Source: Runella sp. SP2 (GTDB taxonomy: Bacteria; Bacteroidota; Bacteroidia; Cytophagales; Spirosomataceae). Taken from it: a stretch of 64,000 bases of DNA. The notes under the pieces are model-generated. The model was not told the origin of the DNA and made no database searches. It was given only the letters and a program-made list of their open reading frames with translations. Below are positions 3,321-39,360 of the stretch, in pieces. The first letter of the stretch is position 1. Each line of letters opens with the position of its first letter. The DNA lies in the NCBI RefSeq assembly GCF_003711225.1, contig NZ_CP031030.1, forward strand, positions 6,809,501 through 6,873,500, written 5' to 3'. Made by a program: the position numbers and the translations under genes.

Positions 3321-3350
3321 GTGTGTCGGGCTGCTCACAGCCCGACACAC
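3321..3350 (-). repeat. TGAG-loop extragenic hairpin (13-bp stem)
   Basis: A perfect inverted repeat: 13-bp arms (3321-3333 and 3338-3350) around the tetraloop CTCA, which reads TGAG on the minus strand. It lies 6 nt beyond the stop of the S41 protease gene and 60 nt before the MTHFR-like start, both on the minus strand. It can act as a transcription terminator or mRNA stabiliser, although no T tract follows. It shares its loop with the hairpins at 23.9, 24.4, 38.4 and 39.2-39.4 kb, but its stem sequence is entirely different. Confidence 0.85.
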
Positions 3351-3356
3351 GAAGAC

Positions 3357-5009
3357 TTATTTCTGTCCTTTCAAGATTTTTTCGTAGCGAGGCATGTCTT
3401 TAAATAAATCAAGTGCTGCTTTTACTTCGGCATCCGTGCGGAATACGTATTCGCGCTCCCCTTTTTGGAGGTAATAGTGCGACACAATCTCCCGCTCTAG
3501 TAAGTGCTTAATGTCCTTTTTGAACATGGCCAAATCGCTTTCTTTGCTGTGACCAAGCTTGGTTTTAAGGGCTTTGAGCTGTTCTTGGATAACATCAAAA
3601 TACTTTTCTTTTTTTGCCGATGCCTCAAGCGTACCGAGGTCTTTCTCTACCTGCGTTACGTAGTCGTATTCTTTGTCTTTTAGCCAAGTAGAAAATGCTT
3701 GATAATCGGCATCAGTTAGCTCAAATTCCTTGGCAGTTTTGATGGTCGGGTGTGCCGCGCGGTAATGCAAGGCATAATCAAACAACAATCCTTTGGCGTT
3801 AAGGCTGGTCACAATTGTTGGCAATGCTGGCAGTTCGGTAGCTACATCAGGTTCAACCCCTCCACCGTCATATACCACACGGCCGTTGCGGGTTTTGAAG
3901 GCCACTTTGAGCGAGTCAGGTACTTTTGCTACGCTTCCGTCGGGGTTGCGGTGGCTATAATCAATGGCCTGAATACAGCGCCCGCTCGGGATGTAGTACT
4001 TGGCAACGGTTACTTTCAATTTGGTATTGTACGACAAATCGCGGGTTGTTTGCACAAGCCCTTTGCCGTAGGTTCTTTGCCCCACCAACACACCACGGTC
4101 GTAATCTTGCATTACTCCCGATACAATTTCAGAAGCTGAGGCACTGCGGCCATTGACCAGCACCACCAACGGAATGTCGGTGTCCACAGGCGCCATTGGA
4201 GCCGTATAAGTTTTGTTCCACTCCGTTACTTTTCCACGGTTCGATACCACTTCGGCATCCTTGGGAATGAATAAATTACAAATCAATACTGCTTGGTCAA
4301 GCAATCCACCTGGGTTTTCGCGAAGGTCGAGCACCAATTTTTTCATGCCTTTTCCTTTGAGTTCCACTAGTGCATTTTTTACTTCGCGGGCAGCCGTTTG
4401 GTTAAAGTCTTTGAGGTCGATGTAGCCTACTTCGTTGTCGAGCATTCCGTAATAAGGAACATTGCCTGTCTTGACAAACTCACGCGTTACATTGACTTCA
4501 ATCAAGTCTTTGGAACCCACGCGGCGCACGGCGAGCTTCACCGACGAATTGGCCTGTCCTTTCATGAGTTTGTCGGGGTTGGCATCTTTGCGGGTTGTGA
4601 TGTCTATTCCGTCGATTTTGACAATTTCATCACCTACGTGAAGGTTGGCTTTGGCGGCGGGAGAATCTTCCAGAATAGAATAAATGATTTGTCGGCCTTT
4701 GTTGGGGGTGATTACTGCCCCGATGCCCGTGTATTGGCCCGTGGTCATGGTGCGATAATCCTCAATTTCGTCTTCGGCGTAGAAGTTGGTGTAAGGGTCG
4801 AGGTTTTTAAGCATAGATTCTATGCTCATTTTTGTCAACCGATTGGGGTTGATTTCGTCCACATAATAGCGATTAAGTTCCTTAAACAGCGTGGCATAAA
4901 TGTCTAAGTTACGGGCGATTTCAAAAAAGCGTTCGTCATTGCGGAAGGCAAAAAAACCTACGGACACAACGCACACAGCGGCAAGAATGAGTTTACGGAA
5001 ATGTTTCAT
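3357..5009 (-). CDS. S41 C-terminal processing peptidase (CtpA-like)
   Basis: A 550-residue membrane-anchored periplasmic protease. Residues 5-22 form a signal anchor. A PDZ domain follows at about 90-180 (TGIGAVI, DSPAAKANLHVGDEIVKIDG), then the tail-specific protease core with LDLRENPGG at 227-235, the serine nucleophile in NGRSASASEI (about 287-295) and the lysine base in TYGKGLVQ (Lys316). The C-terminal 180 residues form a helical extension common in Bacteroidota homologues. The start at 5009 (MKHFRK) puts the hydrophobic anchor at the N-terminus; the frame extends further upstream without support. Such proteases trim or degrade periplasmic proteins from their C-termini. It follows the OmpA-like gene, but a strong terminator separates them. 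Confidence 0.92.
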   Translation of the reverse strand: MKHFRKLILAAVCVVSVGFFAFRNDERFFEIARNLDIYATLFKELNRYYVDEINPNRLTKMSIESMLKNLDPYTNFYAEDEIEDYRTMTTGQYTGIGAVITPNKGRQIIYSILEDSPAAKANLHVGDEIVKIDGIDITTRKDANPDKLMKGQANSSVKLAVRRVGSKDLIEVNVTREFVKTGNVPYYGMLDNEVGYIDLKDFNQTAAREVKNALVELKGKGMKKLVLDLRENPGGLLDQAVLICNLFIPKDAEVVSNRGKVTEWNKTYTAPMAPVDTDIPLVVLVNGRSASASEIVSGVMQDYDRGVLVGQRTYGKGLVQTTRDLSYNTKLKVTVAKYYIPSGRCIQAIDYSHRNPDGSVAKVPDSLKVAFKTRNGRVVYDGGGVEPDVATELPALPTIVTSLNAKGLLFDYALHYRAAHPTIKTAKEFELTDADYQAFSTWLKDKEYDYVTQVEKDLGTLEASAKKEKYFDVIQEQLKALKTKLGHSKESDLAMFKKDIKHLLEREIVSHYYLQKGEREYVFRTDAEVKAALDLFKDMPRYEKILKGQK

Positions 5010-5061
5010 GGTGGTCCTTTTTATCAAAAACGCGTAAAGTGTCACGAAGTTATGAGATTTC

Positions 5062-5099
5062 CCCAAAAAAACGAGCGATGCCTCGAAAGACATCGCTCG
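5062..5099 (-). terminator. Rho-independent terminator of the OmpA-like gene
   Basis: On the minus strand a perfect 9-bp stem (CGAGCGATG/CATCGCTCG, plus-strand 5072-5080 and 5091-5099) with a 10-nt loop is followed directly by a run of seven T residues. It begins 26 nt after the OmpA-like stop codon. Confidence 0.85.
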
Positions 5100-5125
5100 C
5101 CATGGTTGGAAAAGGTTTTTAGACC

Positions 5126-6019
5126 TTATTTTCCTCCTTCAAACATTTGGAAGAATTGGTCAAGTTTTGGAAGAATAACGATTTCAGTACGACGGTTTAC
5201 GCTGCGGTTTTTGCTGCTATCGTTCGCTACTTTTGGTACATATTCTCCACGGCCACCTGCGGTCATACGCTCAGGTGCTACGCTGTATTTTTTCTGAAGT
5301 GTACGTACTACTGACGTTGCACGCTTGGCACTCAAATCCCAGTTGTCTTCCAACACCGATGCGCTGTTGTACGGTACGCTGTCGGTGTGGCCTTCTACCA
5401 AGATGTCGAAATCTTTGCGGTCGTTTACTACTTTAGCAATTTTGCTCAACACTGTTTCAGCTTGTGGCGTAATTTCGTAGCTGCCGTATTTGAACAACAT
5501 TTTGTCTGAAAGCGAGATATACACCACGCCTTTTTTCACTTCGATGTTTACGTCTTCGTCGTTCACATTATCAAGTGAGCGCTTGAGGCTCATCACCAAC
5601 GCCAAGTTGAGTGAATCCTTGCGACGCAAGTTTGAGTTCAAATCTTGGATGTAAGAGCTCTGACGGTTCAACGCATCCAACGATTTTTTGATGCTTTCCG
5701 CTCCATCTTTACTTACAATTGACAAGTCAGACAAACGGTCAAGAAGGTTGGTATTTGTACGCTTCAAGTACGCCAATTCATCTTCTAATGCTTTGAGCTT
5801 AGCACGTTCGTTGGTAACATCACCATCTTTCAACTTGATTTGGTTTTTCAAATCGCTGATGTCATTGTTAAGTTTTGAAGTCAACGCGTCGCAATCAGCC
5901 TTGTTTTTGTCCAACAATGCTTGGAGTTCAGCTTTTTCTTTGTTGAGTTGGGCCAGTTGTTTCTTGTTGCAAGATGCAAAGAGGAGAACAGACAATGAAA
6001 ATAAAATAATTTTTCTCAT
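5126..6019 (-). CDS. OmpA-family lipoprotein with coiled coil
   Basis: A 297-residue cell-envelope lipoprotein. The signal peptide ends in the lipobox LFASC with Cys17 as the lipidation site. Residues 20-150 are a Lys/Glu/Leu-rich heptad region predicted to form a long coiled coil. The C-terminal domain (about 165-285) is OmpA-like: ILVEGHTDSVPY, then NWDLSAKRATSVV and NRRTEIVILP, which is the peptidoglycan-binding pattern with the conserved Asp and Arg. It probably ties the outer membrane or a periplasmic coiled coil to peptidoglycan. The intergenic region upstream is divergent with pdhB. Confidence 0.9.
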   Translation of the reverse strand: MRKIILFSLSVLLFASCNKKQLAQLNKEKAELQALLDKNKADCDALTSKLNNDISDLKNQIKLKDGDVTNERAKLKALEDELAYLKRTNTNLLDRLSDLSIVSKDGAESIKKSLDALNRQSSYIQDLNSNLRRKDSLNLALVMSLKRSLDNVNDEDVNIEVKKGVVYISLSDKMLFKYGSYEITPQAETVLSKIAKVVNDRKDFDILVEGHTDSVPYNSASVLEDNWDLSAKRATSVVRTLQKKYSVAPERMTAGGRGEYVPKVANDSSKNRSVNRRTEIVILPKLDQFFQMFEGGK

Positions 6020-6327
6020 TTCTTATGAGGTTAAAGTGGATTGTATAGTTAGGTATTTGCTACAAACTTAAAGCGTTTGCTTCAACTTTTCGCTATATAA
6101 ACTCAATTCTTTGCAATTTTTACCACTCCTAAGGCAATTTTTTTTCAAAAAACGCGATTTGGAATCCTTTTAAACCGTTTTACAGTAATAATAGCTAAAT
6201 ACCCAACGACAGAAATGAAAAACAGAACCTGAAGCAGGGGAAGTAGCGGTTAAATGACTGGATTTACGAAAAAATTCCTATTTTTACGGCCGTTTTCAAC
6301 CCCCAAATCCAGAATTTTACACATACA
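6020..6327. promoter_or_regulatory. Divergent intergenic promoter region (ompA-like / pdhB)
   Basis: A 308-nt AT-rich gap between divergent genes; no ORF is supported. On the minus strand, TAAGTTTG (plus-strand 6063-6070) matches the Bacteroidota -7 element TAnnTTTG exactly, about 45 nt before the OmpA-like start. I do not see a convincing -33 TTTG at the usual 19-21 nt distance. No clear promoter for pdhB was recognised; TATTTTTA at about 6273-6280 differs from the consensus. Confidence 0.35.
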
Positions 6328-7311
6328 ATGAGACAAATACTTTTCCGTGAAGCTTTACGTGAAGCCTTGAGCGAAGAAATGCGTCGTGACTCACGCGTGT
6401 TTTTGATGGGTGAAGAAGTAGCCGAATACAATGGAGCTTATAAAGTAAGTCAAGGGATGCTTGACGAATTTGGGCCAGAACGCGTTATTGACACACCTAT
6501 TGCAGAATTGGGTTTTGCTGGTATCGGGGTAGGTGCTGGAATGAACGGTTTGCGACCTATCATCGAGTTTATGACATTCAACTTCTCGTTGGTAGCCATC
6601 GACCAAGTGATCAACTCTGCTGCTAAAATCCTTTCGATGTCAGGTGGACAATACAGCTGTCCTATCGTATTCCGTGGGCCTACTGGGAACGCGGGTCAGT
6701 TGGGCGCGCAGCACTCTCAAAACTTTGAAAACTGGTACGCCAATACACCAGGTTTGAAAGTAGTTGTTCCGTCAAACCCTTATGATGCAAAAGGATTGTT
6801 GAAGGCATCTATTCGTGATAATGACCCCGTTATTTTCATGGAGTCAGAATTGATGTATGGTGATAAAGGCGAAGTTCCTGAAGAAGAATACATCATTCCA
6901 ATTGGAAAAGCGGAAGTGAAAAAGACAGGTACTGACGTAACCATTGTTTCTTTTGGTAAAATGATTACACGCGTTGTTAATCCTGCCATCGAAGAATTGG
7001 CCAAAATGGGTATCAACGCAGAATTAGTTGACTTACGTACGGTACGTCCTATCGATTATGCAACGGTGATTGAATCTGTTAAGAAAACCAACCGCTGCGT
7101 GGTGGTAGAAGAAGCATGGCCATTGTCATCGATTGCGACGGAGCTTGCTTACATGATCCAGCGCAAAGCGTTTGATTATTTGGATGCTCCTGTAGTGCGC
7201 GTGAACAGCATGGATGTGTCGCTTCCGTATGCGCCAACCTTGATTGAAGCCGCCTTGCCAAACGTAAAACGTACGATTGATGCCGTGAAAACGGTGATGT
7301 ATCGCAACTAA
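6328..7311 (+). CDS. pdhB: pyruvate dehydrogenase E1 component, beta subunit
   Basis: The 327-residue protein is a full-length E1-beta subunit of the 2-oxoacid dehydrogenase complex. It forms the alpha2beta2 thiamine-diphosphate enzyme that decarboxylates pyruvate and acetylates the lipoyl domain of E2. Diagnostic segments are the N-terminal REALREALSEEM, MGEEVAEYNGAYKVSQGM with the ThDP-interacting Glu, RVIDTPIAELGFAGIGVGAG and VVPSNPYDAKGLLKASI, with the transketolase C-terminal domain from about residue 200. The alpha subunit gene is not adjacent, so the complex is encoded at separate loci. A strong terminator follows, so it is monocistronic. A branched-chain or acetoin E1-beta is a less likely reading. 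Confidence 0.93.
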   Translation: MRQILFREALREALSEEMRRDSRVFLMGEEVAEYNGAYKVSQGMLDEFGPERVIDTPIAELGFAGIGVGAGMNGLRPIIEFMTFNFSLVAIDQVINSAAKILSMSGGQYSCPIVFRGPTGNAGQLGAQHSQNFENWYANTPGLKVVVPSNPYDAKGLLKASIRDNDPVIFMESELMYGDKGEVPEEEYIIPIGKAEVKKTGTDVTIVSFGKMITRVVNPAIEELAKMGINAELVDLRTVRPIDYATVIESVKKTNRCVVVEEAWPLSSIATELAYMIQRKAFDYLDAPVVRVNSMDVSLPYAPTLIEAALPNVKRTIDAVKTVMYRN

Positions 7312-7335
7312 TAAATAGTGCATACCGTAGATAAA

Positions 7336-7368
7336 AACAAAAAAGCCCCCGACGGGGCTTTTTTGTTT
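7336..7368 (+). terminator. Rho-independent terminator of pdhB
   Basis: Perfect 14-bp inverted repeat (7336-7349 and 7354-7367) with the tetraloop CGAC. The GGGGC core is followed by six T residues and preceded by an A tract, so it could work in both directions. Confidence 0.92.
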
Positions 7369-7443
7369 GGCACGATTTTTTAGTGGTATCCTATCATAAA
7401 ACCATTATTTTTGGAGTTATTCATCCAAAAGTCTTTTTAAACG

Positions 7444-8181
7444 ATGAAACAGCTACTTGTAACCTTCTTTTTAGCCGCTGTGGTGAGCACAGGGCTTTAC
7501 GCACAGACTTCAGACGCCAAGGCAGATTCGGTCTTTTTAAAGTATTATACGGCCACGGGTGGCAAAGCATTGTGGGATTCGGTTCAAACTTACACCCTCA
7601 AACAAGCCTACCGCGCAGGAACGGCCAACGACTTTGATTTGGACATCAAAGCCTCAGTGCCCTCACAAGCAATGGTAAAGGTGCGTACCATTTTAAAACG
7701 TGATTTTATTTATGGTATCAAAGCAACCGATGGTTGGCTGAAAATCCCTATTGGAAGCCGTGACAAGGTAACGCAATACCAAACCAGCAACTTGAGCGAT
7801 AAAGAACGCGAGAACATGCGTCGCGAACTGACAGATATACTTATCCCTTTTGATGATTATACCACCAAAGGCTACATCGCTACCGTCGTAGGAACTGAGC
7901 AAATCAACGGTGCCACTGCCACGCAAGTAGAGTTGGAAGGAAAAGGAGTAAAATACAACCTTTATTTTGATGCAAAAACGGGCTTGTTACTCCGCGAAAA
8001 GTTGACCCTAGCAACGGGTGAAATTCAAACCCGTGACCATACCAAATACGAAAAATCAAAGTACGGCCTTTCGTATCCTTCAGAAACGACTTATGTAAGT
8101 AGCATTGATAAAAAACCGATGAAGGTAACAACGGTGACGGACTTCAACGTGAAGTTTGCCGAAGATCCGTTTGTGAAATAG
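7444..8181 (+). CDS. LolA-like outer-membrane lipoprotein-sorting family protein
   Basis: A 245-residue exported protein with a signal peptide (residues 1-21, ending LYAQ). The mature part begins ADSVFLKYYTATGGKALWDSV and continues with long antiparallel strands (VKVRTILKRDFIYGIKATDGW, KGYIATVVGTEQINGATATQVEL, KYNLYFDAKTGLLLREKL), the fold pattern of LolA/LolB-like periplasmic lipid or lipoprotein carriers. It sits 23 nt upstream of tamB and almost certainly starts the operon, pointing to a role in moving lipoproteins or lipids to the outer membrane. It is not orthologous enough to call LolA itself. Confidence 0.75.
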   Translation: MKQLLVTFFLAAVVSTGLYAQTSDAKADSVFLKYYTATGGKALWDSVQTYTLKQAYRAGTANDFDLDIKASVPSQAMVKVRTILKRDFIYGIKATDGWLKIPIGSRDKVTQYQTSNLSDKERENMRRELTDILIPFDDYTTKGYIATVVGTEQINGATATQVELEGKGVKYNLYFDAKTGLLLREKLTLATGEIQTRDHTKYEKSKYGLSYPSETTYVSSIDKKPMKVTTVTDFNVKFAEDPFVK

Positions 8182-8204
8182 AAATTTAATTAAGCGGGTA
8201 TTGA

Positions 8205-11200
8205 GTGAAAAAAGTAGGTAGAGGCATATTGTTTGTTGTATTGGGGCTACTGCTAGTGGTCGGTTCGGGGGTGGTTTGGCTACAAACTACTTCGGGCCAA
8301 GACTGGCTGACCCAACAAGCAGTGTCGTACCTTCGTAAAAAGCTTCATACAAAAGTGGACATAGCCCAAGCCCGCTTTTCATTGCCCGACTGGATTGAAC
8401 TACGTGGGGTGTATGTGGAGGATTTGCGGCGTGATACGCTACTTGCAGGGGGGCGCCTATACGTGGATTTAGACGTGTGGGGTTTGCTGCAAAGTCGGGT
8501 GGGTATCAATGAAATCCAACTGGAAGATATTCGCCTCAAAGCTTACCGTACACTCCCTGATACTACGTTCAATTTTGCCTTTGTTGCCAAAGCCTTTGCG
8601 TCCGAAGATACCGCGCCCGATACCACAACCGCACCGTTGGATATGCGATTGGATGCGATTCAGCTTCGGAATGTGCGTTTGTCGTACCAAGATGCCGTCA
8701 TTGGCACTGATGCCGATCTGTCGCTGCCCGACGCACGCTTTCGGTTCTCGGCTTTTAACCCTTCACTGAACCGCTATCATTTGTCAAAAACCGACATTCG
8801 TTCGGGAGGAGTAACGGTGAAAATATACCAACCCCTTCGTCAAGATACGACGAAGACGGTGGCTTCGGCTCCTGCTTCTGACTCGCTTGATTTGAAGCTG
8901 GGAACACTGCTCTTGGCAGATTATCGGGTGGTGTATGAAGATGAAAAACAACAAATAAAAACTGCCGTTACCGTTGGGAAAATAGAGGTCGAAGCTGAAA
9001 AATTGTTTTTGACCAAACCGCTGGTTGCCCTCAAAAAATTAGGCATTGAAAATACCGACATAACTTTTCGCTCGGGTGATTTTGCCCTCGAACTCCAGCG
9101 TTTTCAAACCCAACTGGACAGCTTTCTGTTTGCTCCCGAGCGCATTTCGGGGCAGTTGAAGTCGGGGAGTTGGGTAGAAAAACGACGCGGAGCGGTGCGC
9201 CAACTTCGTGCTGATTTTGTCTATACGCCCCGCGAAGTGTCACTACAAAACTTACTGCTGCAAACCAACGAGACGCTTCTTCAAGATCGGGTTGTGCTGC
9301 GCTATGCGTCGCTGGATGATTTTTCAAAAAACATAGGAAAAGTGGGCGTGGAGGTGCGTTTGACCAAAAGCCAGCTTGGTTTTAAAGACATCCTTGCTTG
9401 GGTGCCTTCGCTGCGCAAAACCCCACCATTTGCCAAAAATCCTGCGGCTATTGTCAAATTTAATGGCCTTGTACAAGGCCGAATCGACGATTTGAGCCTA
9501 AAAGGAGTTGACATAAGTACGTTAGAAACAACCCACTTACGGGCCGATGGGCGGATTAAGGGGTTGCCCGACCCGCAACGAATGGCGTTGGACTTAAACA
9601 TTGCTGACTTATCGTCTTCGCGGCGAGATTTGCAGCGTATTTTGCCCGATAGCGCCCTGCCTGCTACCATCGAATTGCCCGACAACCTGCGTTTATCGGG
9701 CAAAGTGAAAGGGAGCTTAGATAATCTGTATTTGGATACCCAATTGGCCTCCGACCGAGGTAATGCGATGTTTGAGGGAAATCTCAAAAATTTTGTAAAA
9801 GGCCGCCAGCAAAGCTACGACGGAACGCTGGCATTGCTGGAGTTTGATGCAGGAAAATGGCTCAAACAACCGCCTTCGGAGCTGGGAAAACTTTCGCTTA
9901 AAGCAACGGTTGTTGGCCAAGGCATTGACCCCAAAACGCTCCAAGCAGATTTGACTGGTGTTGTTGAAAAGGCCGATGTGAAAGGCTATGTTTATCAAAA
10001 TTTGGCATTAAAAGGGAGTGTGCGGGAGCAAGTCGGTGACCTAACAGCCGCCATTGCGGATTCCAATGCGACTTTGACATTGGTTGCCAAAGCAGATTTG
10101 CGAACGGACTATCCCACGTTTTCATCCCAGTTAGACATTCTAACGCTGCGCCTAAAACCGCTTCATTTGTACGAAGAAGATTTGGAAATCAAAGGGGGAA
10201 TAAATGCCAACTTTACTTCTACTGACCCCGAAGACCCACGCGGAACGTTCCAAATTACCAATGGAATTTTGGTACAAAAAGGAAAACCCATTCCCCTGCA
10301 AAATATTCAAGTCGTGCTTGATAACCAGCAGGGAGAGCGCTTGGCGCGGATAGATGCCCCTTTCTTGAAAGCCAAAGCGACGGGTACGTTTCGCTATGTG
10401 CAGTTGGCTGACGTGGTGCTGACTGAAATCAATCGTTATTTTGCGCTTCCCGATGTCTCTTACAAACCCGTGACCAGTCCTTATCGCTTGTCGATGGACG
10501 GAAAAATAGCCAATCACCCTGCGATTCAGGTATTTGTTCCTGAACTGACGCGAATGGATACGGTTCGTTTTTCGGTGTATTTGGACAGCCAGCGCGACAC
10601 TACTTTGTTGGCGCGTATTTCGGCACCGCACGTTGAGTACGATAGCATGGTGGTTAAAAATGCCGATTTTGGGGTGTTAGGAGTCGAAAATCAGGCCAAT
10701 TACGTGGGGCATGTGGACAACTTTTTGTACGATACCTACCAAATCAAACGGGCTGCCGTAGAAGGCCAAGTAGCTAATAGCTTGGTGGGTTTTAAGGGGT
10801 CGTTTAAAGATTCATTATACCAAAAACAACACGAATTGGCAGGCTCACTGGCAAGCGTGGGCAATGCGTATCGTTTGCAACTCGCCCCCAATGGCCTTTT
10901 GCTTGACTACAAACCTTGGCAAGCAGCGCCTGCTGGCTACGTTCAGTTTGGCAAAGAAGGACTGTTGGTCAAACAATTTGGTTTGCAACAAGACCGCCAA
11001 CGACTGCTCATCAACACCACAACCGATACGCCCAACGGCCCCTTGCGGGTTGAAATGGATAGCCTTGATTTGGGCACACTGACCTCTTTGGTGATGGATT
11101 CGTTGCAGGTAAGCGGTAAGTTGGGAGGAAATGTGTTGCTACAAAATTATACCGAGTCTGCCGTTTTTACAGGCGACTTAGGCATTGAAGGGTTTAAATA

Positions 11201-23887: not shown

Positions 23888-23926
23888 CGGTTTTCTTCTG
23901 GTTGTGAGCAACCAGAAGCACGTGTA
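23888..23926 (+). repeat. 39-bp direct repeat, copy 1 (contains TGAG-loop hairpin)
   Basis: This 39-bp sequence is identical to 24430-24468 and in the same orientation. Inside it, 23895-23904 and 23909-23918 form a perfect 10-bp stem around a TGAG loop, followed by CACGTGTA. It begins at the base after the stop codon of the LON-domain gene. The two copies bracket a truncated Rpn nuclease gene. Confidence 0.95.
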
Positions 23927-23930: not shown

Positions 23931-24386
23931 TTATTTGCCCTGACTTCTAAGCTTTTGCACAGTTTCAATAGATACATCAGCCAACGATGCAATTTTGGCA
24001 TCATCAAAGCTTGTTTCAGCTAGGAGGGTATTTACAAAATGCAGCTTTTGTGCTTCTACACCCTTTTTCTCTCCTTTGGCTAGCCCTCGCTTTTCTCCCA
24101 AGCGACGTTCACGCTCCAACACAAATTCAACAATCCCCATCGTTTCTTTCGGTTTGTTTAACAATAACTCTATCGCTTCGTCAAATTTAACATCATTTTC
24201 CCGTTTTCCAAAACGTACGTAAAGCTTCAAAAAACCCATCAATGCCTCTATCTTCCCCCGACTAAAACCCTTACTAACCAACCGCTTGAGCAATTCTACT
24301 TTTTGTTTTAAAAGCTCCTCTTCCGTTACTTTCCCCTTCTGCAATGCGACCAAAACTGTCAAGATAATCATCGCAAAAGGATACAC
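23931..24386 (-). pseudogene. Rpn-family (PD-(D/E)XK) recombination-promoting nuclease, 5'-truncated
   Basis: About 150 codons of the C-terminal half of an Rpn/PDDEXK-transposase-family protein. The family's post-catalytic segment is present (YPFAMIILTVLVALQKGKV, LLKRLVSKGFSRGKIEALMG, FLKLYVRFG, ETMGIVEFVLERERRLGEKRG). The whole N-terminal nuclease domain with the D and ExQ catalytic motifs is missing: upstream of codon YPFA the sequence becomes a hairpin repeat and then the next gene. The last 30 residues (IASLADVSIETVQKL) resemble the tail of the intact Rpn gene at 44.3 kb. An ATG at 24371 could start a 146-residue remnant, but a functional nuclease is unlikely. A 39-bp direct repeat flanks it on both sides. 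Confidence 0.8.
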
Positions 24387-24392
24387 TGTGCA

Positions 24393-24412
24393 GCGGGTTG
24401 CTTCCAACCCGC
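24393..24412. repeat. hairpin variant with GAAG/CTTC loop
   Basis: Perfect 8-bp stem GCGGGTTG/CAACCCGC around CTTC (GAAG on the minus strand). It lies at the exact breakpoint of the truncated Rpn gene. Its stem core resembles the GGGTTG/CAACCC units of the array at 39.3 kb, but the tetraloop differs from TGAG. Confidence 0.7.
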
Positions 24413-24429
24413 CCTTGCGGCTGAACTGG

Positions 24430-24485
24430 CGGTTTTCTTCTGGTTGTGAGCAACCAGAAGCACGTGTATGAGCAACCAGAAGCAC
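24430..24485 (+). repeat. 39-bp direct repeat, copy 2, plus a half copy
   Basis: 24430-24468 repeats 23888-23926 base for base, including the hairpin at 24437-24460. It is followed at 24470-24485 by a third partial copy of the right arm only (GAGCAACCAGAAGCAC). The block sits between the Rpn remnant and the stop of the FAD oxidoreductase gene. Confidence 0.95.
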
Positions 24486-32207: not shown

Positions 32208-32315
32208 AGTAAAAGTATCTTGAAATTGTTTGAGCGCAAATGTCGCAAGAAATGCACGAAAGTAAAATAGTCTGCTTCTTGGCTTTGGACAGGAACAGTC
32301 AAACTAATTTTAACG

Positions 32316-33041
32316 ATGTATAAGCTAGTAATTTCGCTCGCCTTGTTGATGGGAACTTTGGCCTTTCAAACCCAAGCCCAAAACGTTCTTTCCACCCAAG
32401 AAAAAAAGCAAGGTTGGGAATTATTATTTAATGGTAAAGATGTGTCGGGTTGGCATACGTACGGTGGCAAAGGCGTAGGGACGGCGTGGAAAGTAGAAGG
32501 TGATGCCCTCAAGCTCGACGTGCCTGTCAGAGCAGGAAACAAAGCCCCCAATGGCGGAGACATCGTTTCAAACGTGCTTGTTTCGGGGGATTTTGAGTTC
32601 AAAGCTGACTGGAAAGTAAGTCCATTGGCCAATAGCGGTATTTTCTTTTTTGTGAAAGAAGCGGATCAGTATAAAAACATGCACAACACGGGGCTTGAGC
32701 TTCAGGTGTTGGATGATAAAATTTATGAAGGTGCCGCCGAAAACAAACACCGTGCGGGCGATTTCTTTGGAGTCGCCAATGCACGTCTTCGTGAAATCAA
32801 TCCTGTCGGCGAATGGAATCAGGTGCACGCGGTGTTTCGGAAAAACAAATTAACGATTACACTCAACGGCTTTGTGGTTCAAGAACACGATTTGTCGAGT
32901 GCTGATTGGAAGCAACGAATTACCAATAGTCCGCTGAAAAATGCCCCCATTGCCCAAAATCAATTAACTGGCGTGATTGGCTTACAAGATTGGGGAAGTA
33001 CAGTTTGGTACCGAAACATCAAACTTCGGAAGTTGAAGTAA
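32316..33041 (+). CDS. DUF1080 (3-keto-disaccharide hydrolase family) exported protein
   Basis: A 241-residue protein with a signal peptide (LLMGTLAFQTQAQ). The DUF1080 concanavalin-like fold is marked by GWELLFNGKDVSGWHTYGGKG, FEFKADWKVSPLANSGIFFF, NTGLELQVLDD and GVIGLQDWGSTVWYRNIKLR. Members hydrolyse 3-keto-glycosides after oxidation by Gfo/Idh/MocA or FAD dehydrogenases, or act on other glycosides. A Gfo/Idh/MocA protein is encoded 16 kb away at 48.6 kb, not adjacent. The gene is monocistronic, with a strong hairpin after it. Confidence 0.88.
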   Translation: MYKLVISLALLMGTLAFQTQAQNVLSTQEKKQGWELLFNGKDVSGWHTYGGKGVGTAWKVEGDALKLDVPVRAGNKAPNGGDIVSNVLVSGDFEFKADWKVSPLANSGIFFFVKEADQYKNMHNTGLELQVLDDKIYEGAAENKHRAGDFFGVANARLREINPVGEWNQVHAVFRKNKLTITLNGFVVQEHDLSSADWKQRITNSPLKNAPIAQNQLTGVIGLQDWGSTVWYRNIKLRKLK

Positions 33042-33063
33042 TGGGGCATTGCCTGAAATTTTT

Positions 33064-33123
33064 CCCGCAGATTTTCGCTGAATAATTGCTTTATGAAGTT
33101 CTTGTTCGGCGAAAATCTGCGGG
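33064..33123. terminator. bidirectional terminator-like hairpin between convergent genes
   Basis: Perfect 15-bp arms (33064-33078 and 33109-33123) separated by 30 nt, with A/T tracts outside the arms. It sits between the stops of the convergent DUF1080 and OPT genes. Confidence 0.75.
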
Positions 33124-33148
33124 TGAAAAATATTTTTGTACAAAAATC

Positions 33149-35188
33149 TTATCGCTTCATTGCTACGCGATACAACACTACGGCCATGGCGGCAAATAAG
33201 CCTGAGCCAAGGAGTTGGTATCCGCCTTCACCGAAGACTGAAGCAAGGGCGTGTTCGAGGTTGATGTTGGCAAGGGCATTAAAAATACTGTCGTTGACCG
33301 AGAGGAGAGCTACAACTACGCCCGCCAATGCACCACCTGCCACCAATCCCGTCGAAAACAAATTCCCTTTGCCCAAGTCAGCGTCTTCTTCTTCGATTCC
33401 TTGGCGTTTTGAGTTCCAATTGACAAACGCTTTGACGCACCCGCCCGCAAAAATGGGCAAAGTCGTTGAAAGAGGAAGGTACAAACCCACGGCAAACGAA
33501 AGCGCGTTGACTCCCATGATTTCGATGGTGAGGGCAATAAAGACCCCTACCAACACAAACTGCCAATCGAGGTTAAACGATAAAAGTCCTTTGATAAGCG
33601 TGGCCATCAAAGTGCCTTGGGGAGCAGGAAACTTGTCGGTGCCAATTGCGTGCTGAATGCCTTGAGCAGCCAAATCAGGCGTAGGTGTGTCGAGCAATTT
33701 GACGGTAGCACCGATTACCAACGACGACACAATGACCCCGATGAAAAGGGCAATCTGCTGATAACGTGGCGTAGCGCCCACCAAATACCCCGTTTTGAGG
33801 TCTTGTGAAGTGTTTCCTGCATTGGCGGCAGCGATGCAAATCATCCCCCCAATCACCAACACAGCAGGTTCGTACATTTTTCCTGTTAACCCAAACCCAA
33901 TGAAAACCAACGAAGTAGCCATGATGGTCGCAATGGTCATGCCCGAAACGGGCGACGAACTTGACCCAATAATACCGACAATGCGGCTGGCGACGGTGAC
34001 GAAGAAAAAGCCAAAAACCACGACCAACACCGCAATCAAAAACTTGGTTAAGAACCCATCACCAGGGATTTGGGGCAAAATCACCATCAAAATTACCAAG
34101 GCCAAACAACCAAAAAGCACCACTTTAAACGACAAATCTTGTTCGGTACGGAGGCGAGTGGCATCAGCGCCTGCTTTCATTGAAGCTAAACTTTGGCTGA
34201 AGGAAGAGACAATTGTAGGAATGCTTTTAATCAAAGCCATAAAACCACCCGCCGCCACGGCACCTGCGCCAATCTGACGAATATAAGCGCGATAAATGGC
34301 CGATGCAGTGTCAGTAAAGCTGTGAGAATCAGGGTTCCAGCCACCTGGGCCGCCTGCGGTAGCGAGGTCTTTGAGGTAGCCCAATTTGATAAGCTGCTCG
34401 GCGATGGTATCGGCAGGAACGAGGGTGGCCAAAAGGGGAATGAGCCCCAGCCACGCTAAAAGTCCGCCGCCCACCAACACCGCCGAAATACGAAAGCCAA
34501 TGATGTAGCCTACGCCCAAATATTCAGGTGTAATTTCACCGCTGACGACGGCTGAGGGGAAGATTTTGCTGGCTTGAGATGAGGCTAATTTGGGTACTTC
34601 GGCAATCACGTGTAAGATTTTTTGGAAAAAAGCGTACAACATGGCCACGCCAAGCCCTTGATAGGCTGTTTTGGCAAGGTCACCGCCTTTTTCGCCCGCA
34701 ATCAACACCGAACCGCAAGCCGTTCCTTCGGGGTAGGGGAGGGTGCCGTGCTCTTGCACAATCAGCGACCGCCGCAACGGAATCATCATAAATGTGCCTA
34801 AAAATCCGCCTAAAATCGCTAATGTGAGAATGGTCCAATAATTGAAAAAATCGGCCCCGATGCTTTTGCCTTCTTCAGTCATGGAAAGAAACAAAAAGCC
34901 TGGCAAGGTAAACACCACGCCCGAAGCGATGGACTCACCCGCCGAACCCGTGGTTTGAATGATGTTGTTTTCGAGGATGGTGGTGCCTAAAAATTTGCGA
35001 CCCAGCGAGATAGCCAAAACGGCAATGGGGATAGAAGCCGAGACCGAAAGCCCCGCTTTGAGCGATAAATACACCGTAGCAGCGCCGAATAATACGCCAA
35101 AAATAGCACCCATGACGACCGATTTGACAGTAAATTCGGCGACACTACTTTCGTTGGGAACGTAGGGTTTGAAGTCTTTTGATTCCAT
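33149..35188 (-). CDS. OPT-family oligopeptide transporter
   Basis: A 679-residue inner-membrane protein with about 15-16 predicted helices. It begins SVAEFTVKSVVMGAIFGVLFGAA, has LPYPEGTACGSVL (the conserved PEG motif of the family) at about 130, and NTSQDLKTGYLVGATPRYQQ, which is the OPT family NTxxDLKxG motif. Bacterial OPT proteins import small peptides or metal-chelate complexes with protons. It is the last gene of a probable three-gene minus-strand group after pirin (58 nt) and the intradiol dioxygenase. Confidence 0.92.
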   Translation of the reverse strand: MESKDFKPYVPNESSVAEFTVKSVVMGAIFGVLFGAATVYLSLKAGLSVSASIPIAVLAISLGRKFLGTTILENNIIQTTGSAGESIASGVVFTLPGFLFLSMTEEGKSIGADFFNYWTILTLAILGGFLGTFMMIPLRRSLIVQEHGTLPYPEGTACGSVLIAGEKGGDLAKTAYQGLGVAMLYAFFQKILHVIAEVPKLASSQASKIFPSAVVSGEITPEYLGVGYIIGFRISAVLVGGGLLAWLGLIPLLATLVPADTIAEQLIKLGYLKDLATAGGPGGWNPDSHSFTDTASAIYRAYIRQIGAGAVAAGGFMALIKSIPTIVSSFSQSLASMKAGADATRLRTEQDLSFKVVLFGCLALVILMVILPQIPGDGFLTKFLIAVLVVVFGFFFVTVASRIVGIIGSSSSPVSGMTIATIMATSLVFIGFGLTGKMYEPAVLVIGGMICIAAANAGNTSQDLKTGYLVGATPRYQQIALFIGVIVSSLVIGATVKLLDTPTPDLAAQGIQHAIGTDKFPAPQGTLMATLIKGLLSFNLDWQFVLVGVFIALTIEIMGVNALSFAVGLYLPLSTTLPIFAGGCVKAFVNWNSKRQGIEEEDADLGKGNLFSTGLVAGGALAGVVVALLSVNDSIFNALANINLEHALASVFGEGGYQLLGSGLFAAMAVVLYRVAMKR

Positions 35189-35246
35189 GAAGCTTTAAGG
35201 TTTAGGAGATAAACCTTAAAGATAGCATTGAAATAGAAAACCACAA

Positions 35247-35927
35247 TTAGGTTTCCAAAATCAGCAACATAGCATCATTGGACAAGGCTTCAAATTCCAC
35301 CTCCGTCACCGAGGAAAGCGATAAGCCATCGCGGGCGTGAAGCAGGCGGTTTTGGACTTCAAATGCACCTTCTATCACAAAAACATACACTCCTTTACCT
35401 GCTGATTGCACTTGATAAATATCCTCTACCCGCCCGTCATAACGCCCGATGAAACCTGGCACACACGCATTAAAAAGAGGAAGCAACCGATTCTTTTGCG
35501 AAAAATCGAACGTATTTATTTCGGTTTTTGGGGTAAAATCTTCTGGCGGACGCTTCAACCAAATCTGTAAAAAATTCACCAGATGGTCAGGATACGGGTT
35601 GGTGACTTTGTAGCTCATCCCTTCCTTTGCCGAAAACACCTGTACTTGCCCAGCTTCAACAAAACCCGTTTGGTTTAGGCTATTTTCATATTCCAAAGCC
35701 CCAACCAACGGAATCAAAACCACATCCGTCGCTTGGTCAACCGTCATTTCGAGGCTACGTTCGTAATCAAGGGTGTCGTCGTTCAGCACGCGCAAGGAGC
35801 CAAACGGCTCACGGTTTTCGGCTTGGTACGCTCCAAAATTGAAACTATGGTAGCTCCGAAACCAGTCGAGTTGTGACACTCCGCGCTGGTCGGCTAAGAA
35901 GATAATGGCGTTGGTTGAGGGCATCAT
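35247..35927 (-). CDS. pirin-family bicupin protein
   Basis: A 226-residue cytoplasmic protein with the pirin/YhhW layout of two cupin domains. The N-terminal part has FRSYHSFNFG, then FGSLRVLNDDTLDYERSLEM, where the canonical pirin metal motif would read HPHxGxET; the usual H-P-H is not visible, so the metal site is probably changed or lost. The middle NPYPDHLVNFLQIWLKRP matches pirins, and the second cupin ends the protein. Its role may be quercetinase-like or regulatory. It lies 23 nt after the dioxygenase gene. Confidence 0.7.
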   Translation of the reverse strand: MMPSTNAIIFLADQRGVSQLDWFRSYHSFNFGAYQAENREPFGSLRVLNDDTLDYERSLEMTVDQATDVVLIPLVGALEYENSLNQTGFVEAGQVQVFSAKEGMSYKVTNPYPDHLVNFLQIWLKRPPEDFTPKTEINTFDFSQKNRLLPLFNACVPGFIGRYDGRVEDIYQVQSAGKGVYVFVIEGAFEVQNRLLHARDGLSLSSVTEVEFEALSNDAMLLILET

Positions 35928-35950
35928 GGTCTATGAATCAATATAATGGG

Positions 35951-36694
35951 CTACGCGCTTACAACAATGGTGTGGGTTAAAGCATATCCATTGGCAACAC
36001 TTCCCGAAAGCGTCGCAAGCTCGTTGGCATACCCGTCTCCAAACACGTTGTCTTTTTCGTTGGTGGTATCCGCTTTGCCTTTTTTGTAATAGTTGGTGGC
36101 AGTAGTAAATACGGTGTCACATACATCGGCAGGAAAGGCGATTTGGGTGACCAACAATGACTTACCCGTAGCATCATAAATGTGAACGTGGATGTGTACC
36201 GCACGACCAGAATACCAGCCTGGGAAAATTGTTGTAAAACCAACGTTCCCTGATGCATCCGTTGTTTGGCGTCCCCGTAAAAAATGAACCGAAGTGTAAT
36301 TGGTACTTTGCATACCCGTTCCTCCGTATTCTGAGTAGTTGCCGTCGGCATCGCAGTGCCAAATATCAACCAATGCTCCCGAGAGATTTGTACAGTTGTT
36401 ATTTTTGTTTTTGATGTTAATAGCCACTGTCATCGGGAGACCTGTGCGGTCAGAACGGATGTCTTTCAACACCAAAGAGCTAGGAGTTTTGGTGGGAAAC
36501 GGCCCTTCGGTTTCCGAATTTGTCACTGTACAGTTAGTGCTCGAAGAGCCATTGGTAGAACCTTGCGATGTGGTAGAACCCGACGTTGACGTGGTGGGGT
36601 CAACGGTGTCTTTGCTACAGGCACTTACGAGGGGTGTTACTGCTGCAATTCCTAAAAGTGACAAGCTTCTTTTCAAAAATTCCTTGCGTTCCAT
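35951..36694 (-). CDS. intradiol ring-cleavage dioxygenase-family lipoprotein
   Basis: A 247-residue exported protein. The signal (RSLSLLGIAAVTPLVSAC) ends in a lipobox with Cys26, followed by a Ser/Thr-rich linker. The core is the beta-sandwich of intradiol dioxygenases: TEGPFPTK, VDIWHCDADGNYSEYGG and FPGWYSGRAVHIHVHI. These segments supply the two tyrosine and two histidine ligands of non-heme Fe(III). Exported versions of this family are common in Bacteroidota and the physiological substrate is mostly unknown. It is upstream of pirin and an OPT transporter. Confidence 0.88.
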   Translation of the reverse strand: MERKEFLKRSLSLLGIAAVTPLVSACSKDTVDPTTSTSGSTTSQGSTNGSSSTNCTVTNSETEGPFPTKTPSSLVLKDIRSDRTGLPMTVAINIKNKNNNCTNLSGALVDIWHCDADGNYSEYGGTGMQSTNYTSVHFLRGRQTTDASGNVGFTTIFPGWYSGRAVHIHVHIYDATGKSLLVTQIAFPADVCDTVFTTATNYYKKGKADTTNEKDNVFGDGYANELATLSGSVANGYALTHTIVVSA

Positions 36695-36798
36695 ATTCGT
36701 TTGATTCGTTTGAATGAGTGATTTTAATTACCCATACGTACAAGACATGCACAACGTTGTGCAAAAAGCCTGTTTTGAGGTAAAGGGCTTAAATGTTG

Positions 36799-36840
36799 CG
36801 GTAAACACAGGTCAGACGATAGTCAGACCTGTGTTTACCG
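36799..36840. repeat. GTCAGAC-GATA hairpin, copy 1
   Basis: Perfect 15-bp arms (36799-36813 and 36826-36840) enclose a 12-nt loop. The central 20 bases GGTCAGACGATAGTCAGACC consist of two direct GTCAGAC words separated by GATA. It is in the 213-nt gap between the dioxygenase start and the S41 protease stop. Confidence 0.9.
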
Positions 36841-36852
36841 CTGTACTCTTCG

Positions 36853-36873
36853 TGGTCTGACTATCGCCGACCA
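36853..36873. repeat. GTCAGAC-GATA hairpin, copy 2 (degenerate)
   Basis: TGGTC/GACCA arms around TGACTATCGCC; the minus-strand core is GGTCGGCGATAGTCAGACC, differing from copy 1 in one GTCAGAC word. It is inverted relative to copy 1. Confidence 0.8.
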
Positions 36874-36897
36874 GTGTTTGAGGACTCTTCTATTCTT

Positions 36898-36923
36898 CGT
36901 GGTCTGACTATCGTCTGACCACG
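36898..36923. repeat. GTCAGAC-GATA hairpin, copy 3, overlapping a stop codon
   Basis: Perfect arms CGTGGTC/GACCACG (36898-36904 and 36917-36923) enclose the same 12-nt loop as copy 1, inverted. The repeat covers the last codons and the stop of the S41 lipoprotein gene. Confidence 0.9.
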
Positions 36924-38236
36924 GTGTTTTTGACTATTTTTTTGTCAAGCGTTTGGTTCATGGTTACTTGTTCGACCGAAAGACGGGCGTTGCTTGTTAC
37001 AGTAAAACTACCCGTTTGAATATAGTTGAGTGTTGCGGCCAAACAGTTTTCCTGCGTATCGCCCCAGTTTTTACTGAGTCCATCCGATACCGCCGCATCA
37101 ACGGCTAAGCCCGTGTAATAATCCCCTACATTGTTTGCATTTACCGTTTTAAAGGCAATCGGGGCAATGACGTAATCCATCACCTCAAAACCGTACATGC
37201 CTACGGGCTTGCCGTGCGTCGTGCTACCAATTGTTTTGACGTCCAGATACGGTTTTAGGTTATTGATAAGTAATTCGGAGGCGGAAGCAGAGGCCGACGA
37301 CGTGATGAAGAAAATTCGAGAAAGATTCAAAGAACCCGTTTTAGAAAAGCGAATCGTCTCGTTCCACTGCGAAAGTTTGGTGTTGTGAAGATAGCTAAAC
37401 ATCACCGACGACTTGGTGACACTCGTAGGAGCAAGCGCGTTGGCCAGCATAATTTGCGTTTCGACGTCGCCCCCGCCATTATAGCGCAAGTCCACGATGA
37501 GTTCGTTGACTCCTGCACTTTCAAAATTGCTCAATACCGCTTTTAGCTCATTCTGCGAAGGCGTTCCTGTAAAGCTATTGAAGACAAAATACCCAACTTT
37601 CCGCCCCGCTACGTCGTAGGTTTTGTTAAAAAGTACCGTATTCATCGTGTAAGTCGCGGCTGTTAGCGCAACGGTGGATGTAGTTCCATCCGATTTTTCA
37701 AACCCAAACGTCGTAGAAGTCGCATCATAGAAGGCATTAACAATGGCATCATCCGTCATTGACTTTACCGATTGTCCGTTCAGCGTCGTCAGTTTCCAGC
37801 CCCGTTCTACCCCTGCTTTTCCCGCAGGCGATTGGTCATATACATAACGCACGCGCAGGTCGTTGTTGGCATCGTATTTTATCCAAAAACCAAAATCTTG
37901 CGTTTCGCCGTCCGAAAAATAGCTATTGAAAGTACTCGCCTTTTCCACAAACGACCAGCGGTCTAATGTTTGATAGGTACGCAACGCATCCATCTCACTT
38001 TCAGGGTCGGCATACGATCGAGGATTAAACGTAGTAGGAAGTTTATCATACCACAAATAAACATCTTGCATGTACAGCCAAAGCGAATCGCGAATGTCTG
38101 CCGTATTTGAGGAGGTATTTGAAGAACTAGAGCCGCTAGAAGTGGTTTGCGGGTCGAGGTTGTTTTGTTTGCAACTAAAAAGGGCAATACAAAACGCTAC
38201 AGTCATTCCAATAGTAAGTTTTGCCATGTTGCTCAT
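36908..38236 (-). CDS. S41-family peptidase, lipoprotein
   Basis: A 442-residue periplasmic or surface lipoprotein protease. The signal peptide ends FSC (Cys22), followed by a Ser/Thr/Asn linker. A PDZ-like domain (YDQSPAGKAGVERGWKLTTLNG) precedes the protease core: VDLRYNGGG, the nucleophile serine in TSSASASASELL and the lysine in TTHGKPVGMYGF. The last residues (KNTVVRR) are encoded within an extragenic hairpin repeat. It differs from the CtpA-like protein at 3.4 kb by its lipid anchor and lack of the C-terminal helical extension. An ATG at 38227 is an equally possible start. Confidence 0.88.
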   Translation of the reverse strand: MSNMAKLTIGMTVAFCIALFSCKQNNLDPQTTSSGSSSSNTSSNTADIRDSLWLYMQDVYLWYDKLPTTFNPRSYADPESEMDALRTYQTLDRWSFVEKASTFNSYFSDGETQDFGFWIKYDANNDLRVRYVYDQSPAGKAGVERGWKLTTLNGQSVKSMTDDAIVNAFYDATSTTFGFEKSDGTTSTVALTAATYTMNTVLFNKTYDVAGRKVGYFVFNSFTGTPSQNELKAVLSNFESAGVNELIVDLRYNGGGDVETQIMLANALAPTSVTKSSVMFSYLHNTKLSQWNETIRFSKTGSLNLSRIFFITSSASASASELLINNLKPYLDVKTIGSTTHGKPVGMYGFEVMDYVIAPIAFKTVNANNVGDYYTGLAVDAAVSDGLSKNWGDTQENCLAATLNYIQTGSFTVTSNARLSVEQVTMNQTLDKKIVKNTVVRR

Positions 38237-38370
38237 GATACTGTTTTTAAGTTAGGTGAAGAAAAAAAACAGGGAGAGGTATGACAAATTCGGTCGATGC
38301 TCAAAAAGTGGATGATTGCGTTAACAATTGCTGTTACGCATATCCTTCTGGGAGCGTTGCAGAAAACCGT

Positions 38371-38507
38371 ACCCGTGGTTTTACGCTGTGCCCGTGGTTT
38401 TGTGCCGTGCCTGTGGTTTCTTCGCCGTGCCCGTGGTTTCTCAAAACCACGGACTCGACAGACGCGGTTTTGAGAAACCGCTGACACAGTTGAGAAACCG
38501 CTGACAC
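38371..38507 (-). repeat. degenerate TGAG-hairpin array after the LytTR gene
   Basis: Four arms reading C-CCGTGGTTT or a one-base variant start at 38372, 38391, 38410 and 38430 (periods 19, 19, 20). Only the last completes a hairpin, CCGTGGTTT-CTCA-AAACCACGG (38431-38452; TGAG loop on the minus strand). A second complete hairpin GCGGTTT-TGAG-AAACCGC is at 38464-38481, and its right half is repeated at 38491-38507 (17 bases, period 20). The array fills the space between the S41 lipoprotein start and the LytTR regulator stop. Confidence 0.85.
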
Positions 38508-38510
38508 TTA

Positions 38511-39206
38511 CTAGGAGGAAAAACGTTTGAAAAACTCAGTTTCGTAGCTACTTCCAATCGGAATTTCATTTCCACTAAGCGTAATTGTCTTATTCCGAAC
38601 GTTTTCAATGCGTCGCATGGGTACAATAAACGACCGATGCACTCGTATAAAATCCCGTGCTGGCAGTTTTTCAACCATGCTTTTCATGGTCATACGCGCC
38701 ACGATAGGTTTCGCATTTTCGAGCTGAATTTTGAGGTAATCGTCTAACCCCTCGATAAACAAAATGTCGGCGATGGCAATTTTATAGGTGCTGTAATCGG
38801 CTTTGATGTATAAATATTCAACAGCAAGCTCAGGTTCTGCTTTTTTGATGAACTGAGAATAATCCAGCGCTTTTTGAACTCCCTGCTGAAAACGCTCGAA
38901 GGTAAATGGTTTCAAAAGATAGTCAACTGCGCTGAGGTTAAAGCCTTCTACGGCATATTCAGCGTAGGCCGTCGTAAAAATCACCATCGCCGCTTTTGGA
39001 ATCGCTTTATAGAAATCAATCCCCGACATGGCAGGCATATTTATATCCAAAAAGAGCAAATCCACCTCATTTTCGTTCAAATAAGCCAGCGCCTCGTCGG
39101 TACGCGAAAAGGTTTTTTGTAAGTCAATGAAAGGTACTTGACTGCAAAAATGAGAAATCACCCGCAGTGCAGGGGGCTCGTCGTCGATAGCTATTGCTTT
39201 GAGCAT
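38511..39206 (-). CDS. LytTR-family response regulator
   Basis: A 231-residue two-component regulator. The receiver domain has the acidic pair at DDE (8-10), the phosphoacceptor Asp54 in LFLDINMP, and the conserved Thr and Lys in FTTAYAEYAVEGF and DYLLKPF. The LytTR DNA-binding domain (about 130-231) shows EYLYIKADYSTYKI, FIEGLDDYLKI and FIRVHRSFIVPMRRI. The start at 39206 (MLKAIAID) is the family start; the frame upstream is only the hairpin array read through. It is the second gene of an operon with the LytS-like kinase, separated from it by a 31-bp-period hairpin array. Confidence 0.94.
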   Translation of the reverse strand: MLKAIAIDDEPPALRVISHFCSQVPFIDLQKTFSRTDEALAYLNENEVDLLFLDINMPAMSGIDFYKAIPKAAMVIFTTAYAEYAVEGFNLSAVDYLLKPFTFERFQQGVQKALDYSQFIKKAEPELAVEYLYIKADYSTYKIAIADILFIEGLDDYLKIQLENAKPIVARMTMKSMVEKLPARDFIRVHRSFIVPMRRIENVRNKTITLSGNEIPIGSSYETEFFKRFSS

Positions 39207-39238
39207 AGTGGGGTTACGTTTTTTGATTAATATAAAAT

Positions 39239-39360
39239 AACAGGGTTTTGAGAAACCCTTTGCACGTAGGGTCGGGTTGTGAGCAACCCTCTGCACGTGA
39301 GGTCGGGTTTTGAGAAACCCTTTGCACGTGAGGTCGGGTTTTGAGCAACCCTCTGCACGG
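39239..39360 (+). repeat. tandem array of four TGAG-loop hairpins, 31-bp period
   Basis: Four units at 39239, 39270, 39301 and 39332. Each is GGGTTN-TGAG-N'AACCC (stems GGGTTT/AAACCC, GGGTTG/CAACCC, GGGTTT/AAACCC, GGGTTT/CAACCC), followed by a 4-5 nt gap and GCACG. Units 2 and 3 match over most of 31 bases, but the loop-closing pair changes on both sides together. The array lies inside the kinase-regulator operon and could tune the relative expression of the two genes. Confidence 0.95.

Follow-up and report, generated by a model that had tools for sequence, protein, structure and literature searches.

Repetitive extragenic palindromic (REP) elements of the GTAG and CGTC superfamilies are palindromes of 20-40 bp that carry a tag at one end, occur in high copy number and form inverted dimers (PMC3733652). 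As REPINs (REP doublets forming hairpins) or BIMEs (bacterial interspersed mosaic elements), inverted REPs make up composite units linked to REP-associated tyrosine transposases, the RAYTs (PMC3116915, PMC2817692). In a published study of three RAYTs, these proteins recognised folded single-stranded DNA with a 5' foot; for group 3 RAYTs, certain loop bases are indispensable, the foot is important, mismatches harm cleavage, and swaps of stem blocks are mostly mild (PMC8266576). In subclass 2.6, or group 5, found mostly in Bacteroidetes, the RAYT gene is flanked by atypical hairpins that lack GT[AG]G and also occur away from the gene in the host genome (PMC6006769); the hairpins of the Bacteroidetes class are described in print as atypical and as requiring manual inspection to be found. 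Comparisons with these papers hold for the portions of their text used here. In this study, we analysed a family of hairpins with the loop TGAG in a 64,000-nucleotide stretch of Runella sp. SP2 (assembly GCF_003711225.1, contig NZ_CP031030.1, positions 6,809,501 to 6,873,500, hereafter the window), in the rest of that genome and in its relatives. We consider it highly probable that these hairpins are REP elements of a RAYT/REP system, or "REPtron". Judging from sequence, a domesticated single-strand transposase, encoded within a cluster of the hairpins, most likely uses them as its recognition sites, and the REP class is probably that of the poorly described Bacteroidetes RAYT group 5, subclass 2.6. 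Apparently new are a GTGN foot at fixed distance, a nearly sequence-free outer stem, and double-hairpin ends.

The core GGTTNTGAGNAACC has 448 exact copies genome-wide, 227 forward and 221 reverse, and the reversed pattern, taken as a control, has none. An unbiased scan of the window gave CTCA/TGAG as the commonest tetraloop, in 8 of 26 hairpins with a stem of at least 6 bp and 4 of 8 with at least 8 bp. The same holds over 59 evenly spaced 20-kb stretches (the RAYT stretch L042 being omitted, and hairpins with loop ends able to pair being excluded from the count): TGAG accounted for 124 of 465 tetraloop hairpins at stem ≥6 and for 66 of 101 at stem ≥8, the runner-up loop for 18 and 3. Between GGTTn and nAACC, four-base loops were TGAG in 130/149 cases and TAAG in 6/149, each palindrome being scored on both strands and the counts then halved. 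Location was assessed with crude codon-scored gene models on 1.52 Mb, made up of 56 stretches and the 400 kb surrounding the window (L042, L050, L073 and L093 were dropped). Only 18 of 149 TGAG hairpins lay within gene models, versus 75.6% of bases coding, and tetraloop hairpins with other loops lay within models in 251 of 412 cases. Some of the 18 sit in over-long gene starts; three at 39242-39320, for example, are upstream of what reads as the likely ATG, at 39206, of a LytTR regulator. A preliminary description of the window had proposed an extragenic family, to be judged by the frequency of TGAG against other tetraloops and by its presence in coding sequence. On the parts sampled, TGAG loops are far in excess and copies avoid genes, so that this family is real, and like REPs it consists of short, extragenic palindromes in high copy number.

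The hairpins have a foot. Among 132 TGAG hairpins with a stem of at least 6 bp in 1.23 Mb (the 59 stretches, one of them trimmed, plus the window), CAC begins exactly 10 nt past the loop in 98 (next commonest offset: 8). At 7573 control TGAG sites with a stem of at most 2 bp, CAC was found at that offset in 102, and in 63 to 108 at others. The element can therefore be written N9'-TGAG-N9-NCAC, or on the opposite strand GTGN-N9-CTCA-N9', that is, a hairpin with a 5' foot GTGN whose loop lies exactly 9 nt away, independently of stem length. A foot tetranucleotide at a fixed place 5' of the hairpin is a REP trait. Among 101 feet, GTGC was found 56 times, GTGT 26, GTGG 10 and GTGA 9. The tail described as GCACG within 0-5 nt of several hairpins is thus no loose motif but an NCAC foot, held 9 nt from the loop and not from the stem end. 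A GAAG-loop hairpin at 24393-24412, already noticed as a variant, shares both the foot and its spacing; the best interpretation is a family member with a mutated loop.

Stems had been called unrelated in sequence, which is correct for part of their length. In 110 unique hairpins, selected solely by a TGAG loop and a paired stem of at least 6 bp, pair 2 is T-A in 110, pair 3 T-A in 95, pair 4 G-C in 109 and pair 5 G-C in 104; pair 1 and pairs 6-9 vary. The outer pairs were examined at 107 unique sites of the 1.52 Mb anchored on TGAG-n-A-n-CC-N5-CAC, an anchor that fixes the 3' side of pairs 2, 4 and 5 and does not require pairing. Six sites without 4 of the 5 inner pairs were removed, leaving 101. 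Positions 6-9 were paired in 94, 60, 55 and 59 of these, against means of 34, 24, 30 and 26 in 2000 shuffles (maxima 52, 36, 42 and 39, so that the observed values were never reached), although shared ancestry of the copies, of which only identical ones were removed, inflates these covariation counts. All four positions were paired at 44 sites, and position 6 only at 27; each of pairs 6-9 occurs as all four Watson-Crick types, and 28 distinct outer tetramers are found among the 44 fully paired sites. This pattern of conservation matches the biochemistry of group 3 RAYTs (PMC8266576), and was counted in favour of a RAYT/REP system. Stems tend to stay paired around a nearly invariant loop, so the idea of an element recognised by its loop has held up, and such recognition is probable on sequence grounds. 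Half elements were also counted: neither 5' halves nor 3' halves exceeded the control ratio, and 5 were found among the 107 anchored sites. We dropped the proposal that stems differ so as to prevent cross-pairing between neighbours: only some 2-5% of random pairs of fully paired copies have identical outer tetramers, and unlike stems within a unit are therefore uninformative.

The host encodes a RAYT. Searches of the genome gave one match to the Y1 transposase family and one copy of this protein, which scores 96.3 bits on NCBIfam REP_Tyr_transpos (NF047646, cut-off 80) and 26.7 on Pfam Y1_Tnp (cut-off 23), and has both the HUH and the Y1 motif (NHIH and YMHNNP). Its gene is surrounded on both sides by 26 TGAG hairpins in a 3.2-kb locus. 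Relatives of the protein are found in Runella defluvii (95% identity) and R. limosa (93%), and in 3/3 Runella species examined with a RAYT of at least 93% identity the gene occupies a common genomic site amid hairpins of this family, as expected of a RAYT flanked by its REPs. RAYT matches with the same identities in our genomes G103 and G086 may be those of R. defluvii and R. limosa, and are therefore not additional evidence. Published traits of subclass 2.6 are NH[LIV]H, WQ, YIH[QN]NP, a serine pair and a HuH-Y spacing of about 82 (PMC6006769). Compared with this description, rather than with a profile or tree, the Runella RAYT has NHIH, FSS, YMHNNP (an I to M change) and a start-to-start HuH-Y distance of 77. 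A PDB search returned only a weak match, E. coli TnpA-REP (4er8, E 0.7). Among RAYT loci of other genomes of the family (L108-L123), the hairpins flanking several distant RAYTs have 3-nt loops, often GCA/TGC, with apical GTT/ATT, and are probably further REP families.

Hairpins and enzyme also co-occur. Among 200 genomes of the family, at least 10 cores are present in 11/12 genomes with a close RAYT (E<1e-30) versus 10/188 others (Fisher 1e-11, with both thresholds set after the lists had been seen and with related genomes not independent). The footed pattern was counted 319 times in the SP2 genome, 348 in G103, 293 in G086 and 61 in G145.

The arrays are built of composite units. A footed hairpin, typically of 9-10 bp (H9), is followed inward by an unfooted one, typically of 6-8 bp (H7), and then by the mirror image, giving the symmetric unit foot-H9-H7 / H7-H9-foot; the order <f <o ... 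o> f> is seen in several arrays. Counting all sets, including RAYT loci, relatives and tandem copies, the unfooted hairpin is the inner neighbour of a footed one 63 times, and the reverse was seen 3 times. Inverted pairs thus form composite units as in REPINs and BIMEs, and many other copies are single or in the same direction. In R. limosa the RAYT gene itself is bounded by <H9 <H7 and H7> H9>, the order of the gene-less units; in the SP2 genome the left inner hairpin of the RAYT unit has decayed, and in R. defluvii its left hairpin pair is reduced to one. Loops of a half unit are mostly 21-25 nt apart, and about 40 at the left side of RAYT-type units. In a second genus, whose RAYTs have 49-57% identity, fetched loci of six genomes were examined (the first loci listed per genome, not a random draw): of 31 core sites, 5 are themselves footed, and for 21 of the 26 without a foot a footed hairpin follows 23-25 nt downstream, versus 148 of 20000 random positions. 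The loops of these downstream hairpins are such as TAAG, TTAG, GAAG or TGAG, and most footed hairpins of this genus carry loops other than TGAG. We also considered that the second genus might have a single uniform stem, since its footed TGAG copies gave 4 distinct outer tetramers of 37, versus 31 of 39 in Runella G031. This was rejected: the contrast is only partial, because its footed outer hairpins with TAAG, TTAG and GAAG loops have more varied stems.

We infer that the RAYT binds, cleaves and mobilises these hairpins, with a choice of strand as follows. It would recognise the GTGN-N9-CTCA-N9' strand when folded as single-stranded DNA, with loop, foot and apical GGTT/AACC pairs as the features read, while the outer stem would serve mainly as a ruler that must be paired but is free in sequence. 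Earlier activity would have spread hairpins singly and as symmetric units, one of which holds the RAYT gene at its centre. The gene is now stationary at one site common to three species, and many copies are inherited in place and drift by compensatory stem changes. We advance a fuller proposal more tentatively, as a serious possibility somewhat short of probable: that this is a shape-reading system, in which only the tetraloop, the apical pairs and the GTGN foot are sequence-specific and the outer stem is a free-sequence paired ruler, and that the units of four hairpins are single-strand transposons devoid of the gene, which descend from the RAYT element itself, end in double hairpins and have a layout common to at least two genera.

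As in subclass 2.6, the RAYT gene is flanked by hairpins without GT[AG]G, copies of which lie elsewhere in the genome. The TGAG loop, the GTGN foot 9 nt away, the nearly free outer stem and the double-hairpin ends go beyond that description, the consulted portion of PMC6006769 giving no sequence, foot or geometry. The perfect short palindromes, in which loop bases, foot and pairing matter and stem sequence is partly free, resemble group 3 REPtrons of Stenotrophomonas and Marinomonas, which differ by a GTAG foot, 3-4 nt loops of other sequence, another RAYT group and proteobacterial hosts (PMC8266576). The related subclass 2.5 shows a trade-off between the distance of the foot and the length of the stem (PMC6006769). 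In size, high copy number, a tag at one end and inverted dimers, the family is like the GTAG and CGTC superfamilies (PMC3733652), but its tag is GTGN. Having neither the canonical GT[AG]G foot nor the CGTC tag, it was therefore not filed under them. Unlike in REPINs and BIMEs (PMC3116915, PMC2817692), each half of a unit consists of two neighbouring hairpins, the inner unfooted and the outer footed. With single-strand transposons of the IS200/IS605 type, the locus shares an HUH/Y1 enzyme whose gene is bordered by hairpin ends that carry a 5' guide tetranucleotide (PMC6006769, PMC8266576); it differs in that one copy was found, at a site common to three species, with ends amid arrays of gene-less units. 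A word search of the main text of PMC6006769, its supplementary table lying outside that search, did not find "Runella", nor did one of the main text of PMC3733652 find Runella, Spirosoma, Dyadobacter or Cytophaga. Literature searches, which did not cover supplementary files, found no paper on Runella REPs, so that an earlier listing is possible. The family offers a precise substrate model for the Bacteroidetes RAYT class, with foot GTGN, 9 nt, loop CTCA and a nearly free paired outer stem; its hundreds of naturally varied copies resemble a selection experiment on the requirements of the enzyme. Since the double-hairpin unit exists with and without the RAYT gene, the link between domesticated transposase and repeat is directly testable.

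Several observations weigh against a RAYT/REP system of this kind. The foot is GTGN and not the canonical GTAG/GTGG, it is missing in 34/132 hairpins, and the RAYT residue after W is D, Q being reported for subclass 2.6. Beyond the SP2 genome, G103 and G086, nine further close RAYT loci (1.9-3.6 kb) hold 0 to 5 TGAG hairpins, and 18 distant RAYT loci hold 0; unlike hairpins beside distant RAYTs are what a separate set of repeats for every enzyme would predict. Most genomes of the second genus have few footed TGAG copies, with 2 to 7 in its four close-RAYT genomes other than G145 and 0 to 12 in seven without a close RAYT. Ten genomes have at least 10 cores and no close RAYT (G031, G050, G063, G163, G169, G175, G184, G190, G148 and G039); these cores are presumably remnants after RAYT loss. 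Conversely, G040 carries a close RAYT whose match contains a stop, yet no cores; the stop does not explain this, because cores are present in G172, G145, G095 and G129, whose matches likewise contain a stop. As for recent movement, G103 and G086 were searched for counterparts of 13 clusters from the 400 kb around the window, one of which is probably a hairpin formed by chance. Perfect hairpins were found at the orthologous place in G103 for 9 of 12 alignable clusters, and hairpins in G086 for 5 of 7. Starting from G103 clusters, 9/9 aligned and the SP2 genome had hairpins at 9; from G086 clusters, 5/13 aligned, with hairpins at 4. Hairpin copy number at a site changes between species, and two presence/absence differences were seen: SP2 lacks a block with hairpins that G103 has and one hairpin that G086 has. 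These could be losses: their ends are not clean, gain and loss are indistinguishable, and movement is therefore deduced from dispersal.

The best surviving alternative, which we consider improbable, is that the hairpins act mainly as RNA, as 3' untranslated structures that protect or process mRNA ends and are selected on transcripts, the RAYT link being incidental or historic. It would account for the enrichment of footed intergenic elements between convergent genes (19/43 loci versus 82/490 gaps at large) and for the persistence of hairpins in the ten genomes without a close RAYT. It does not account for a foot that lies outside most stems and whose spacing from the loop is constant, nor for the RAYT gene lying within the repeats in 3/3 Runella species. 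Known REPs are themselves extragenic, with roles assigned in mRNA stability (PMC3733652), so location does not separate the two readings. The structured RNA suggested by the preliminary description is not supported, and neither is its statement that no named repeat has this layout: what the hairpins accompany in the genome is a RAYT, an HUH transposase of single-stranded DNA, and they therefore fall in the named class of REPs.

Still less probable is that quasi-palindromes were made or homogenised by replication template switching, one arm being copied from the other without recognition by a protein. Template switching could produce what is seen at site 3321, where the G086 counterpart has a similar stem with the loop on the other strand, as though the hairpin had been turned round in place. 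It could also produce the few stems above 10 bp, among them a 26-bp stem in another genus. However, 106/110 footed hairpins have stems of at most 10 bp, ending about at the foot, where template switching has no reason to stop; nor has it a reason to keep loop and foot. It may be the origin of new stems within a RAYT/REP system. Bidirectional intrinsic terminators, finally, would fit hairpins in convergent gaps but are hardly credible here, given that only 10/101 TGAG hairpins are flanked by a T tract, both sides being considered (a simple terminator had already been argued against, and this mostly holds), a conserved loop and foot foreign to terminators, and long tandem arrays.

Every hairpin named in the preliminary description was present in the window (Table 1). 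The four at 39239-39360 had been said to pair perfectly; those at 39242-39259, 39274-39289 and 39305-39320 do, and that at 39336-39351 has a T/C mismatch beside the loop. At the place of the GAAG hairpin, G103 has the loop CTCC (+ strand). At site 3321, G103 differs by a T-to-G / A-to-C substitution that preserves an outer-stem pair, and by a mismatch beside the loop.

Table 1. REP hairpins, half elements and truncated copies in the window (positions counted from its first nucleotide)
Feature	Position	Strand	Foot	Remarks
REP hairpin, 13-bp stem	3321..3350	-	ACAC foot position inside extended stem	TGAG loop on - strand
REP hairpin, 10-bp stem CTTCTGGTTG	23895..23921	+	GCAC 23918-23921	loop TGAG
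REP hairpin, stem GCGGGTTG	24388..24412	-	GTGC on + strand, 24388-24391	mutated loop GAAG on - strand
REP hairpin, 10-bp stem	24437..24463	+	GCAC 24460-24463	
Half element	24469..24485	+	GCAC	TGAG loop and 3' arm, without 5' arm
Three truncated copies	38369..38419	-		foot and one arm, GT(A/G)C-C(C/T)GTGGTTT, without loop or second arm; beside full copies; G103 form diverged
REP hairpin, 9-bp stem CCGTGGTTT	38427..38452	-	GTGC on + strand, 38427-38430	conserved in G103
REP hairpin, stem GCGGTTT	38464..38487	+	ACAC 38484-38487	conserved in G103
Half element	38491..38507	+	ACAC	TGAG and 3' arm
REP hairpin, 7-bp stem	39242..39265	+	GCAC 39262-39265	
REP hairpin, 6-bp class	39274..39296	+	GCAC 39293-39296	
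REP hairpin, 6-bp class	39305..39327	+	GCAC 39324-39327	
REP hairpin, one mismatch beside loop	39336..39358	+	GCAC 39355-39358	core GGTTnTGAGnAACC at 39337

A 184-aa open reading frame at 23931-24485 (- strand), without Pfam match, resembles a truncated multi-copy gene, and its 5' part holds hairpins of the TGAG family. Its DNA recurs as several partial copies in the SP2 genome and in related ones (for example G000:C1:6936826-6937283, 87%). In genome G145, a perfect 26-bp stem with loop TGAG, against the usual 9-10 bp, adjoins the RAYT gene (locus L101, about 1400-1450). A 15-bp hairpin at 7335-7368 of the window, with loop CGAC and A/T runs in its outer arms, has the layout of an ordinary bidirectional terminator.

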